Positions 8,677 through 31,078 of a stretch of DNA of 33,678 nucleotides are shown one piece after another. The first letter of the stretch is position 1. Every line of letters starts with the position of its first letter. This stretch comes from Pseudomonadales bacterium. Its GTDB lineage: Bacteria; Pseudomonadota; Gammaproteobacteria; Pseudomonadales; Azotimanducaceae. The stretch is from assembly GCA_007130155.1 (NCBI GenBank), contig SLTB01000281.1:1-33678 (forward strand), read 5' to 3'. The notes beneath the pieces are model-generated. The model ran no database searches. It had not been told where the DNA came from and saw only the letters and a program-made list of their open reading frames with translations. Position numbers and translations under genes: made by a program.

Positions 8677-10215
8677 ATGCTGGAGCTCGTCCTGATTCTG
8701 GGCGATCAGCTCAGTCCCGTACTGCCCGCGCTGCGCGACGCCGAACCCAGCCGAACCCGTATTCTGATGGCGGAAGTGGCAGGCGAGGTCAGCTATGCGC
8801 CCCACCACGCCAAGAAACTGGCGTTCATCTTTTCGGCCATGCGCCATCGCGCCCAGAGCCTCTCCGATCAGGGCTTCGCGGTGGATTACATCACCCTCGA
8901 TGACCCGAACAACAGCGGCACGCTCAGCGGCGAACTCGAACGGGCGCTAAACCGCCATGGTCAAACAGCGTTGCGTATCACAGAGCCGGGAGAGTGGCGC
9001 GTCAAGGCGGAGATCGAGACCTGGGCCAGAGCAAGTGAAGCAGATCTCACCTGGATCGAAGATGACCGCTTCCTTTGCTCAAAGGCGCATTTTCGTCGCT
9101 GGGCCCAAGGTCGCAAGAGCCTGCGCATGGAACACTTCTACCGCATCATGCGTCGCCGCCACAGCCTGCTGATGGAGGCTGACGAACCCGCCGGGGGGCG
9201 CTGGAACTTCGACCCGGAAAACCGCGAGCCGCTGCCACCGCCTCTGGCACGGTCACCGATTCCAAAACCCATGCAGTTTCGACCAGACGTCGAAACCCAA
9301 GCCGTCATCGATCTGGTCCGCCATAGCTGCCCAGACGCTTTCGGAGACCTGGACCCGTTCTGGTTTGCGGTGACCCCGGCTCAGGCGAGACGGGCCTTCT
9401 CTCACTTCCTGCGCAAGTCACTGCCGCTGTTCGGCGACCACCAGGACGCCATGGCCAGCGGTGAGGATTTCATCTATCACGCCGTGATCAGCATCTATCT
9501 GAACGCCGGCCTCCTCGACCCGCTGGCGTGCTGCCGGGCGGCCGAAGACGCCTGGCGCGACGGCAGCGCCCCGCTCAATGCTGTCGAGGGTTTCATCCGG
9601 CAGATCCTCGGGTGGCGCGAGTTCATACGTGGCATCTACTGGCTTGCGATGCCCGATTACGCCGGGAGCAATGCACTCGAGGCTGACCTTCCCCTGCCTG
9701 ACTTCTACTGGAGCGGCGAAACGGGGATGCGTTGTGTGGCGGAGACCGTCGCCGGCATCCGCCGCAATGCCTACGCCCATCATATCCAGCGACTGATGGT
9801 CACGGGCAACTTCGCCCTGCTGGCCGGCCTTGAGCCGAAGGCGGTGTGCGATTGGTACTTGGGCGTCTTTGCCGATGCCTACGAGTGGGTCGAACTCCCC
9901 AACACCCTGGGCATGGCGCTGCACGGAGACGGTGGACTCTTCGCCTCCAAGCCCTACGCCGCCAGCGGGCGCTACATCCATCGCATGTCGGACTACTGCC
10001 AGGGTTGCCGCTACGACTCCGCTGACGCCACCGGCGAAACAGCCTGCCCCTTCAACTACCTGTACTGGGACTTCATCGCCCGTCACCGGCAGCGCTTCGA
10101 GAAGCATCCGCGCATGGCCATGATCTATCGCAATCTCAGCCGCCAGAAGCCCGAACGCGTCCAGCGCATGCGCGAGCTGGCGGCCAAAGCGAGGGCAGAC
10201 CTCGATGCCCTTTAG
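8677..10215 (+). CDS. Iron-sulfur (6-4) photolyase / cryptochrome, PhrB (FeS-BCP) type
   Basis: A 512-residue flavoprotein of the deoxyribodipyrimidine photolyase-related family. Members bind FAD, a lumazine-type antenna and a 4Fe-4S cluster, and PhrB of Agrobacterium repairs (6-4) photoproducts. The Rossmann antenna domain begins LELVLILGDQL. The FAD-domain signatures QILGWREFIRGIYW, HHIQRLMVTGNFALLAGL and ELPNTLGMALHGDGG are present. Cys353, Cys441, Cys444 and Cys457 have the spacing I recall for the four PhrB cluster ligands (350, 438, 441, 454). Other family motifs are KPYAASGRYIHRMSDYC and CPFNYLYWDF. The start at 8677 opens directly into the first strand. The stop codon TAG forms the first bases of a palindromic repeat at 10213. 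Light repair or photosensory function is inferred from the family. Confidence 0.93.
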   Translation: MLELVLILGDQLSPVLPALRDAEPSRTRILMAEVAGEVSYAPHHAKKLAFIFSAMRHRAQSLSDQGFAVDYITLDDPNNSGTLSGELERALNRHGQTALRITEPGEWRVKAEIETWARASEADLTWIEDDRFLCSKAHFRRWAQGRKSLRMEHFYRIMRRRHSLLMEADEPAGGRWNFDPENREPLPPPLARSPIPKPMQFRPDVETQAVIDLVRHSCPDAFGDLDPFWFAVTPAQARRAFSHFLRKSLPLFGDHQDAMASGEDFIYHAVISIYLNAGLLDPLACCRAAEDAWRDGSAPLNAVEGFIRQILGWREFIRGIYWLAMPDYAGSNALEADLPLPDFYWSGETGMRCVAETVAGIRRNAYAHHIQRLMVTGNFALLAGLEPKAVCDWYLGVFADAYEWVELPNTLGMALHGDGGLFASKPYAASGRYIHRMSDYCQGCRYDSADATGETACPFNYLYWDFIARHRQRFEKHPRMAMIYRNLSRQKPERVQRMRELAAKARADLDAL

Positions 10216-10266
10216 CCCGCAAATCTCACCGATGCGTGAAGCGAGGGCGTGGAGATTTGCGGGTTA
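10213..10266. repeat. Solo REP-like palindrome related to module Y ends
   Basis: A perfect 12-bp stem CCCGCAAATCTC (10216-10227) / GAGATTTGCGGG (10252-10263) has a 24-base loop reading ACCGATGCGTGAAGCGAGGG onward. The whole unit aligns with the first 46 or so bases of module Y at 29069 and 30749 (CCCGCATATCTCACCGATAC, GAAGCGA, GCG, GGAKAT). It begins inside the photolyase stop codon and could act as its terminator. The flanks also pair in part (TTTAG / TTAGC). Confidence 0.75.
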
Positions 10267-10429
10267 GCGGCCCAGCAACGGTGCGGGCGATGGGCGCTGT
10301 CAGGCACCCTGCAAATTCAATAGGTTGGCGGCTGTTGCAGGATAGCAGTCCACCAACGGGCCTGGCGTTGAATAGGAACTGCCGAGTTCTGGGGCATCGC
10401 CTCCCCACTGCATTGCGAGCTGCGTGGGC

Positions 10430-29050: not shown

Positions 29051-29065
29051 GTGCCCCCAGGGCAC
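29051..29065 (+). terminator. Small stem-loop after the CoA-transferase gene
   Basis: GTGCCC-CCA-GGGCAC, a 6-bp GC-rich stem, lies 61 bases past the stop codon and 3 bases before repeat module Y. It has no T tract. Confidence 0.35.
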
Positions 29066-29068
29066 TAG

Positions 29069-29336
29069 TCCGCATATCTCACCGATACGCGAAGCGAGGG
29101 CGCGGATATGCCGGTAAAGACAAGGCGCGCGACAGTTCGGGCGCGCAGGCGTACTCGACAGTACGTCGAACGATTCGCCTGGAGCGAATCGGGTCGCACG
29201 CAGTGCGCCCGCAGGGTGCGCACCATGGATGGTGCGCAACAGCGCAACCGCACCGGCGGACCGGCGGACCGGCGGACCGGCAGGATTTGCCGGTAGCTCC
29301 GCGTCCGCAGCCGTGAATCGATGAGATTGGCGGGCC
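29069..29336 (+). repeat. Repeat module Y, copy B
   Basis: A 268-bp non-coding element bounded by near-inverted ends, CCGCATATCTCACCGAT at 29070 and ATCGATGAGATTGGCGGG near 29317-29334. By eye it has about ten mismatches to copy C over the first 190 bases. Internal perfect stems include CGATTCGC / GCGAATCG (29171-29191) and TGCGCACCAT / ATGGTGCGCA (29217-29238). A 9-bp unit (CGGACCGGC) is repeated about three times near 29256-29282, against one in copy C. Short open frames in it are not coding (see rejected items). Confidence 0.88.
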
Positions 29337-29502
29337 AGGAGTCTGCGCGGTAGGACTGGGCGCATGCGAGAAGTTCCTGCTTCGAGGCCGATTCGACACC
29401 CGATTGAGCAGCGTAGTGGTGCCAGGTGACGAAACGGGGGCGATCGTAGCGGGCCGAAGTGGGGGCGTCGCAGCGCGTTCACGTTCTGCCGCGCAGACTC
29501 CT
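29337..29502 (+). repeat. Repeat module X, copy B
   Basis: A 166-bp element with perfect 14-bp terminal inverted repeats AGGAGTCTGCGCGG (29337-29350) and CCGCGCAGACTCCT (29489-29502). The inner sequence CATGCGAGAAGTTCC, TTCGAGGCCGATTCGAC and GCGATCGTAGCGGGCC matches copy C in the same orientation. It begins directly at the end of module Y. Confidence 0.88.
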
Positions 29503-29559
29503 AGGACCCAACCTCTGAACCGTCCCACCCGCTCCGAAAGGGGCCAAAACGTGAGCAGG

Positions 29560-29565
29560 TACAAT
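29560..29565 (+). promoter_or_regulatory. Possible -10 box upstream of the SH3-domain gene
   Basis: TACAAT at 29560 is a good sigma-70 -10 hexamer in otherwise GC-rich DNA, about 115 bases before the start codon. No convincing -35 box sits 16-18 bases upstream, so this is weak. Confidence 0.25.
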
Positions 29566-29678
29566 AGCCAGCACTGTGACACCTTCGCTGTCTTCCCCTA
29601 TCCTCCACGCCCGGACACCGTCAGGATGCACCTTCACCCGACCAATCAGGCCGATGCCGACTCAGACACGCCGGAATC

Positions 29679-30392
29679 ATGACCCTTATGACACGCCAAT
29701 CCGCCATAGCCATCGCCGTAGTCCTGCTCACTGCAGTCGGCGCCGCAACGGTCTCCAGCGAGGCCAGCGCCGCGCCGCGTTGGGTCAACGACGAGATTCG
29801 CATCACTTTCCGAGCCGGGCCAGGAGACGAGTTCCGGATTATTCGCCACCTCAACACCGGCGCCCGACTGGAAACCGCCACCCCACCGGCGGATCGCTTC
29901 CCCGCAGCCAGCGTCGAAGGTTGGACCTATGTGCGCGATGCCACAGGCAACCAGGGCTGGGTGCGAGACCAGTATCTGGCCAACCAGCCACCTGCCCGGG
30001 TGCGCATCGACGCTGTACAGGCCGAGCGCGACAGTGCCCAGGAGCGGGTGTCAGCGCTGACTGCCGAGCTCTCTGAGACCCAGGGCGAGAATGCAGAACT
30101 CAGCCGGCAGTTGGAGCAGAGCCAAAGCCGCATCGCCGAGCTGGAGACCCGATTCGAAGCGGCGCGCGCGGGTTTCGAGCTGGTGGAGACCAATCAGGCA
30201 CTCGAGCAGACCATCGCGGAGCTCAGCCAGCACAATGATGCACTTCAGCGCGAGAACAAGGAGTTGAGCGACCGCAGCCTCAAGGAGTGGTTCCTGATCG
30301 GCGCAGGCGTCCTCGGCGCGGGCATCATCATGGGACTGATCCTGCCGAGCCTGCGCAAGCAGCGCAATCCATGGGGTAGCGGCGGCTTGTAA
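29679..30392 (+). CDS. TIGR04211-type SH3-domain membrane protein (YgiM-like)
   Basis: A 237-residue protein with a signal peptide (MTLMTRQSAIAIAVVLLTAV, cut after ASA near residue 31). A bacterial SH3 domain covers residues 33-100 (WVNDEIRITFRAGPGDEFRI, EGWTYVRDATGNQGWVRDQYL). A coiled coil follows (about 108-200: AERDSAQERVSALTAELSE, ENAELSRQLEQSQSRIAELE). A C-terminal membrane helix (WFLIGAGVLGAGIIMGLILP) ends in a basic tail (SLRKQRNPWG). This order matches E. coli YgiM and TIGR04211. It is expected in the inner membrane with its body in the periplasm, possibly contacting peptidoglycan. ATG codons at 29679 and 29688 are both possible. It is a single gene lying between two repeat clusters. 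Confidence 0.9.
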   Translation: MTLMTRQSAIAIAVVLLTAVGAATVSSEASAAPRWVNDEIRITFRAGPGDEFRIIRHLNTGARLETATPPADRFPAASVEGWTYVRDATGNQGWVRDQYLANQPPARVRIDAVQAERDSAQERVSALTAELSETQGENAELSRQLEQSQSRIAELETRFEAARAGFELVETNQALEQTIAELSQHNDALQRENKELSDRSLKEWFLIGAGVLGAGIIMGLILPSLRKQRNPWGSGGL

Positions 30393-30581
30393 CGACCCGG
30401 ATGCGGAGTCGGCGCTGACGCTGACGCTGACGCTGACGCGAAAGGAAACCTCCAGGCCCTCCGCCGCGTCAAGGTCATCGTCGGCGCTCTTCATCGCCCG
30501 CACTGCGGACCAACCCTGCCTGAGGGCATCGATCAGAACGCTGCCGGATGGCCTCTGTTCTCTCCTTCCGTCGGAAGTGAA
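30393..30581. other. Intergenic region with hexamer repeat and possible coding remnant
   Basis: After the SH3-domain gene come four GCTGAC units (30414-30437). On the minus strand, about 30545-30425 reads LIDALRQGWSAVRAMKSADD and DLDAAEGLEVSF. This looks protein-like and runs into the hexamer as VSVSVS. It has no start of its own before module X, so it could be a truncated gene or chance. Confidence 0.3.
30414..30437. repeat. Hexanucleotide tandem repeat (GCTGAC)x4
   Basis: Four perfect units of GCTGAC lie 21 bases after the SH3-domain gene's stop codon. It is a short repeat that could vary by slippage. Confidence 0.85.
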
Positions 30582-30746
30582 GCGAGTCTGCGCGGTAGAA
30601 CTGGGCGCATGCGAGACGTTCCCCATTCGAGGCCGATTCGACGTCCGGTTGATGAGCGTAGTGCTGCTACGTGACGAAATCGGGCGATCGGAGCGGGCCG
30701 AGGTGGGGACGTCACAGCGCTTTCACGTTCTGCCGCGCAGACTCCT
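30582..30746 (+). repeat. Repeat module X, copy C
   Basis: A 165-bp element with terminal inverted repeats GAGTCTGCGCGGTAGAAC (from 30584) and GTTCTGCCGCGCAGACTC (to 30744), one wobble apart. An inner hairpin CGTAG / CTACG occurs near 30657-30671. It is the same orientation as copy B, but here it precedes Y rather than following it. Confidence 0.88.
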
Positions 30747-30748
30747 AA

Positions 30749-30998
30749 CCCGCATATCTCACCGATACGCGAAGCGAAAGCGCGGAGATGCCGGCAAAGA
30801 CAAGGCGCGCGACAGTTCGGGCGCGCAGGCCTACTCGACAGTACGTCGACCGATTCGCCGGGAGCGAATTGCGTCGCACGCAGTGCGTCCGCAGGGTGCG
30901 CACCATGGATGGTGCGCAACAGCGCAACCGCACCGGCGGACCGGGAGGATTTGCCGGTATATCCGTGTCCGCAGCCATCAATCGGTGAGATATGCGGG
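30749..30998 (+). repeat. Repeat module Y, copy C
   Basis: A 250-bp element with perfect 18-bp terminal inverted repeats CCCGCATATCTCACCGAT (30749-30766) and ATCGGTGAGATATGCGGG (30981-30998), flanked on both sides by CTAA. Each end also carries a GGAKATRCCGG or GGATATACCGG segment that pairs back on its own terminus. The element therefore looks like two REP-like units, in inverted orientation, around a core. TGCGCACCAT / ATGGTGCGCA (30897-30918) is conserved with copy B. It lies just downstream of the TonB-receptor stop codon. Confidence 0.9.
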
Positions 30999-31078
30999 CT
31001 AAGCCTTCGGAGGTCTGCCATACACGTGGGCGGCACATCCCTGTGCCGCCCCAAGCACACCTCTTGCGCGTTACCTCC

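Follow-up and report, generated by a model that had tools for sequence, protein, structure and literature searches.

Neighbouring palindromic repeats of a Pseudomonadales bacterium very probably belong to two independent MITE families, of IS1182 and IS1380 type, that share target sites

Excerpts of the published accounts contain several systems that are close to the repeats analysed here. MITEs of the IS1182 family are tabulated for Methanosarcina acetivorans, with sizes of 160 and 169 bp and with ISMac2 as their partner (PMC3852290). The same IS family includes ISPse1 (1653 bp, IR 16/16, DR 4; PMC3281130) and ISPsy36, an element of 1666 bp with the target GGCC (PMC8027508), and the IS1380 family includes IS1247 (1672 bp, DR 5; PMC3281130). 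MITEPsy1 of Pseudomonas syringae is 100 nt long, has 18-nt inverted repeats and inserts at CTAG or YTAA, where it duplicates 4 nt (PMC3189936). A text search of the literature gave no occurrence of the 15-letter end of the repeat called Y below, and the excerpts of the literature on IS1380 or IS1182 together with MITEs, on CTAG or YTAR targets and on nested MITEs hold no description of X or Y. We regard X and Y as likely new elements of an ordinary type of bacterial mobile DNA, whose proximity likely has an ordinary cause.

The window, the whole stretch of 33,678 bp analysed here, is contig C100 of genome G000, an assembly of 4.12 Mb in 356 contigs. It contains two complete copies each of X and Y and one X-Y remnant, all given on the forward strand. 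Y copy 1 (29069-29334, 266 bp, 3 mismatches in the right inverted repeat), a putative IS1380-type MITE, follows a CTAG at 29065-29068. Its right end meets X copy 1, a putative IS1182-type MITE (about 29337-29502, inverted repeats GGAGTCTGCGCGGTAGGAC / GTTCTGCCGCGCAGACTCC), at a CCAG (29335-29338) that may be a decayed CTAG, and a CTAG marks the right end of this X (29501-29504). X copy 2 (about 30582-30747) starts with CGAGTCTGCGCGG. Its right end coincides with a CTAA (30745-30748) that is at the same time the left target-site copy of Y copy 2 (30749-30998, 250 bp), which has perfect 18-bp terminal inverted repeats and a CTAA as right target-site copy (30999-31002). The remnant comprises the 3' part of an X (about 1757-1853, left part absent), a CTAG junction (1852-1855) and a Y remnant (1856-1935), and a 48-bp mini-Y at 10216-10263 has TTAG on either side (10212-10215 and 10264-10267). 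The Y end was found 6 times in the window at up to 3 mismatches (0.07 expected), and the 16-base X end 5 times (0.51 expected). The two modules of the preliminary description are thus real, with ends above chance. The X-Y remnant directly precedes an ion-channel-like stretch; between 1757 and 2200 it is followed by an ion-channel domain with the motif TVGYGD (Pfam Ion_trans_2, E 4.6e-10), and it may have broken a channel gene.

Both repeats extend far beyond the window. The preliminary description had allowed for the repeats being confined to these copies, or being arbitrary parts of one larger duplicated locus, but we counted 182 Y-type and 38 X-type ends in G000, and the ends of X and Y are sharply defined. 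The Y end CCCGCATATCTCACCGAT accounts for 97+85 places at up to 3 mismatches, against 0 for the reversed control. We fetched 97 stretches around 100 of the 182 Y places, the 38 X-type places and some further similarity matches, and the results for Y rest on the 139 ends read in these loci. Pairing of ends in the fetched loci and the window gave 48 complete copies of 137-269 bp, which fall into two main size classes of about 176 and 250 bp; the difference is a middle block of roughly 75 bp. There were four short copies of 45-48 bp, two of them with identical flanks, and over all copies Y lengths range from 45 bp to 287 bp (locus L117). In Y copy 2 the middle block of about 75 bp lies around GGTGCGCACCATGGATGGTGCGCA (about 30848-30926) and has matches on its own in congeners, so that Y may harbour a third repeat family.

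Four-base flanks were identical in 25 of the 48 complete copies, and 24 of these 25 read YTAR, whereas the next four bases outward were identical in 0/48. CTAG, TTAG, CTAA or TTAA stood before 111 of the 139 Y ends in the fetched loci; the departures from YTAR include CTGG (8) and CCAG (3), each differing from CTAG by a single transition. Y is a transposable element that inserts at YTAR with a 4-bp duplication. It has the properties of a MITE, namely no transposase gene, a length well below 600 bp and many copies, and the short direct target duplication expected of an IS1380-derived MITE. Since YTAR is also the stated target of IS5 (PMC10359306), it does not identify the family of Y by itself; the ends do. 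At the X and Y borders of G000, CTAG often reads CCAG or CTGG, in some X copies mirrored at both ends, as if CTAGG tended to become CCAGG, perhaps through a Vsr-like bias.

A partner for Y was sought through long pairs of Y-type ends in related genomes. Locus L266 (positions 975-2737), from the gammaproteobacterial MAG RHO3_bin_19 (G058), holds a complete IS. It is 1763 bp long, lies between two TTAA and has Y-type ends, each with 1 mismatch in 15. Its ORF of 494 aa scored 403.7 bits with the IS1380 profile NF033539 (cut-off 180) and matched Pfam DDE_Tnp_1_4. Two elements of the window's own genus agree with it: in L295 (G005), the end CCCGCAAATCTCACCGAT follows a CTAG and begins 95 bp ahead of an IS1380-type ORF that is 63% identical to the L266 ORF over 371 residues, and in L296 (G001) a similar Y-type end stands behind TTAG and before an IS1380 match. 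The IS1380 matches of L295 and L296 are cut by contig ends and have one Y-type end each. Y thus has its terminal inverted repeats in common with transposase-bearing IS1380 elements, seen complete in L266 and at one end in L295 and L296.

Of the loci that a search for IS1380 transposases gave in 13 genomes, 30 (L293-L322) were inspected for Y-type ends. Such an end preceded the transposase match in L293 (the same place as L266), L295, L296, L297, L300 and L301. Among these, the G062 coordinates of L297 equal those of G001, hence L297 and L296 are one place, and two cases are weaker, L300 (G067) being a fragment with a stop and L301 (G004) having its Y-type end at 3 mismatches. The other IS1380 loci of this set (G066 and G058:C95, for example) had no Y-type end near the gene or were cut by contig ends. 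IS1380 relatives on viral contigs (47-49% identical) bear the more distant end CGCGGAAATCTCAC. Among the congeners, IS1380 was present in G001 and G005, as weaker fragments in G003 and G004, and absent from G002. In the G000 assembly itself the search returned no IS1380 transposase, only a 22-bit cross-match to an IS1182 gene, so the Y transposase of this genome would have been lost, left unassembled or borrowed.

Other long pairs of Y ends were set aside as autonomous versions of Y. The 1345 bp between the Y ends of L133 (6631-7975) hold a match to a group II intron maturase instead (24 bits, cut-off 23); CTAG stands outside both ends, and we take L133 for a Y that has received a piece of an intron. 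By eye, the open frames of L258 and L240 were not transposase-like, and no transposase-like frame was seen behind the Y end in L134, L150 and L162. IS701, with a gene beside Y in contig C50, was likewise set aside as the partner, since the Y end sits on IS1380 elements. That locus (L107, 70-1700) contains an IS701-family transposase gene (436.6 bits) next to a Y with an altered left end, with CTAA between them; a third family, IS701, may use the same borders as Y.

As far as the excerpts go, Y resembles MITEPsy1 in its small size, its 18-nt inverted repeats and its 4-nt duplication, Y lying at YTAR, but the ends of MITEPsy1 are unrelated and resemble ISPsy2, whereas those of Y match IS1380 (PMC3189936). 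In comparison with the IS1380 elements tabulated in PMC3281130, Y is gene-less and has a duplication of 4 bp, YTAR; L266, L295 and L296 belong to the IS1380 family.

The X end GGAGTCTGCGCGGTAGAAC was found at 16+22 = 38 places in G000, against 1+1 = 2 for the reversed control. Of these, at least 6 are ends of IS1182 copies or fragments and not of X (C198, C232, C284:25973, C321, C337 and C81:211, the last assigned by likeness). The IS1182 profile NF033551 had matches on two contigs of G000, with scores that stay under the family cut-off since the pieces are incomplete. On C321 a contig end truncates an IS1182 N-terminus, MPVSLRDW, and the X-type end GGATTCTGCGCGGTAGAAA starts 113 bp ahead of it. 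On C337 the end GGAGTCTGCGCCATAGAAC follows the transposase stop, at the IS1182 C-terminus, with its outer base 168 bp away; this gene is the sole long IS1182 copy and is split over two frames, with pieces of 190.2 and 158.8 bits against a cut-off of 270. The left ends in C198, C232 and C284 are the same as that of the IS1182-type copy. X and the IS1182-type ends have about the first 18 bp in common and little beyond. The terminal inverted repeats of X are therefore those of an IS1182-family element, whose transposase pieces score below the cut-off and whose gene is split. The preliminary description had modules without a transposase: this holds inside the modules, while transposase genes with matching ends, which it had proposed to look for, lie outside the window, on IS1380 elements for Y (L266, L295, L296) and on IS1182 pieces for X.

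It had also proposed a comparison with empty orthologous sites. This was successful for X at 3 of 10 places, where a congener had a match that ran across the insertion point and lacked X: L093 in G001, G002, G003 and G005, L095 in G004, and L087 in G001 (with a poorly aligned junction). Given these spanning matches, X is an insertion at the three sites, which are too diverged for reading a target duplication. For four X-Y composites, namely the two of the window and those of L051 and L061, no congener match spanned an empty site. CTAG flanks X on both sides in L013 (G000), L197 and L202 (both G001); in L051 and L094 the flanks are CCAG/CTGG, a pair in inverted and not in direct orientation, and other X copies are mixed. 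Since CTAG is palindromic, a 4-bp duplication, a TA duplication and an extended inverted repeat look alike at X.

According to the excerpts, X is similar to the MITEs of M. acetivorans in lacking a gene and in its size, tabulated there with an IS1182-family partner; those MITEs are archaeal and have another end sequence (PMC3852290), and a duplication is only putative for X. With IS1182 elements (PMC3281130, PMC8027508) X would have in common a 4-bp target, palindromic for ISPsy36, and X-type ends are borne by the IS1182 element of G000. Unlike ISPse1 and ISPsy36, X is gene-less and lies at CTAG-like sites.

The preliminary description had also considered a structured non-coding unit, and both repeats fold far better than their shuffles (Y: -140.6 kcal/mol, z -8.56; X: -97.1 kcal/mol, z -7.87). 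That X and Y form one structured RNA or regulatory DNA unit, held by selection and not mobile, is nevertheless very improbable and not needed: long inverted repeats fold like this by their very nature, target duplications are seen at Y, whose length also varies from copy to copy, and the window had no match to an Rfam family at gathering scores. More remote still is the idea that X and Y are REP or REPIN-type elements moved by a RAYT (Y1) transposase. They are palindromic, extragenic and present in many copies, as such elements are, but their ends match IS1380 elements (Y) and IS1182 elements (X), and Y has the YTAR duplication; REPs of RAYT type are not known to make such a target duplication.

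We thus consider it very probable that X and Y are two independent MITE families, of IS1182 and IS1380 type, that share targets. That non-autonomous elements with two distinct end sequences occur here was borne out, and the two end sequences imply two different enzymes, which by their likeness would be of IS1182 type for X and of IS1380 type for Y. Y would be a derivative of an IS1380-family IS that kept terminal repeats close to CCCGCATATCTCACCGAT and lost the gene; a DDE transposase of IS1380 type would have moved it in trans and inserted it at YTAR with duplication of the four bases. X would likewise derive from an IS1182-family IS, pieces of which are still in G000; it has kept the ends GGAGTCTGCGCGGTAGAA and is located at CTAG-like sites. 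As insertions of either family leave YTAR or CTAG at their borders, these borders could become targets for the other family, and X and Y would come to touch.

X and Y had been described as always adjacent, which is true within the window only. Over the fetched loci of G000, a Y end 2-3 bp away was seen at 7 of the 38 X-type ends, with 139 Y ends read in the same loci, and the remaining 31 had no Y end within 3 bp; this count leaves out the X copies C30:105-154 and C292:3013-3125. The seven junctions are the three of the window and those of L051, L061, L085 and L088, and one further Y end is 50 bp off. At the L085 junction the X end has 3 mismatches and was missed by the BLAST search with X. 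In L082 a Y is located inside an X. In 6 of the 7 junctions, the 3 bp between the ends form CTAG, CTAA or CCAG together with the G at which X starts, and in the six clear cases each of the two X ends was used three times.

Random placement would give 0.002-0.003 X-Y junctions instead of the 7 observed. A model in which Y inserts at YTAR and X at CTAG, the borders of the other family included, gave 1.9-2.9 junctions with all sites open and 6.3-9.5 with intergenic sites alone open (28%, that is 9 of 32 unmasked YTAR sites in one window, with reading frames chosen by hand). The seven junctions exceed the expectation for all YTAR sites (P 0.004-0.03). CTAG is scarce in these loci, with 68 occurrences in 209 kb after masking and, in unmasked loci, 135 against a Markov expectation of 251. 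Common use of a scarce target can thus account for the adjacency of X and Y, and the most likely cause is that both families insert at the same rare four-base target. The supposed paired system of two enzymes then gives way to a rule by which families that have a scarce target in common come to lie at one another's borders.

Co-mobilisation, or one composite element, had been the other suggestion. In the form that Y-X moves as one unit with CTAG outside, through one or both transposases, we judge it unlikely. The order Y (right arm), CCAG, X (left end) does recur in three blocks (window 29069-29502, L051 and L088), the window block has CTAG at both outer flanks, and the X copies of the three blocks group with the X of L061. 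The reverse order X-Y occurs as well, however (window 30582-30998, L061 and the remnant at 1757-1935), so that Y adjoins either X end, and in L082 one Y is inside an X. The outer flanks of L051 are CTAG/CTGG, and CCAG or its mirror CTGG is also found at X ends without Y (L094). The nearest relatives of the block Y copies are mostly solo copies, as judged from 42 Y compared in trees without support values. For the five Y beside X among these 42 from G000, the closest relatives were nearly all Y without X at their border; among the five neighbours listed for each, the exception was L061, with window copy 1 in third place. Joint travel and common ancestry of the components, which mark a composite, are thus not seen for X-Y, and 31 of the 38 X-type ends are without Y. 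The grouping of the X copies may arise if the better targets are young X copies whose borders are intact. With their same arrangement and CCAG junction, the three blocks keep alive, at low probability, a reading as a hybrid non-autonomous transposon with one IS1380-type and one IS1182-type end, able to move as one block between CTAG sites. If this improbable reading were true, two transposase families would share one element.

Y-type ends also occur in other bacteria. In public genomes, 57 stretches have an exact Y end that follows YTAR; 56 of them were gammaproteobacterial by title and 1 came from Thermoanaerobaculales. Neither a plasmid collection, queried with Y and with the L147 end, nor viral contigs, searched for exact patterns of the two ends, gave a match. 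The Y end family, large and widespread, could receive a name and an entry in IS databases. The genome of L141, an Ectothiorhodospiraceae MAG of 2.7 Mb (G067), has 276+283 Y-type ends when up to 3 mismatches are allowed (1+0 in the control); this is a very dense MITE expansion, although the genome has a single IS1380 match, a fragment with a stop. Outside the Gammaproteobacteria, the Thermoanaerobaculales MAG of L116 (G059) carries 43+27 Y-type ends, which may reflect horizontal spread, an old end sequence or mixing within the MAG.
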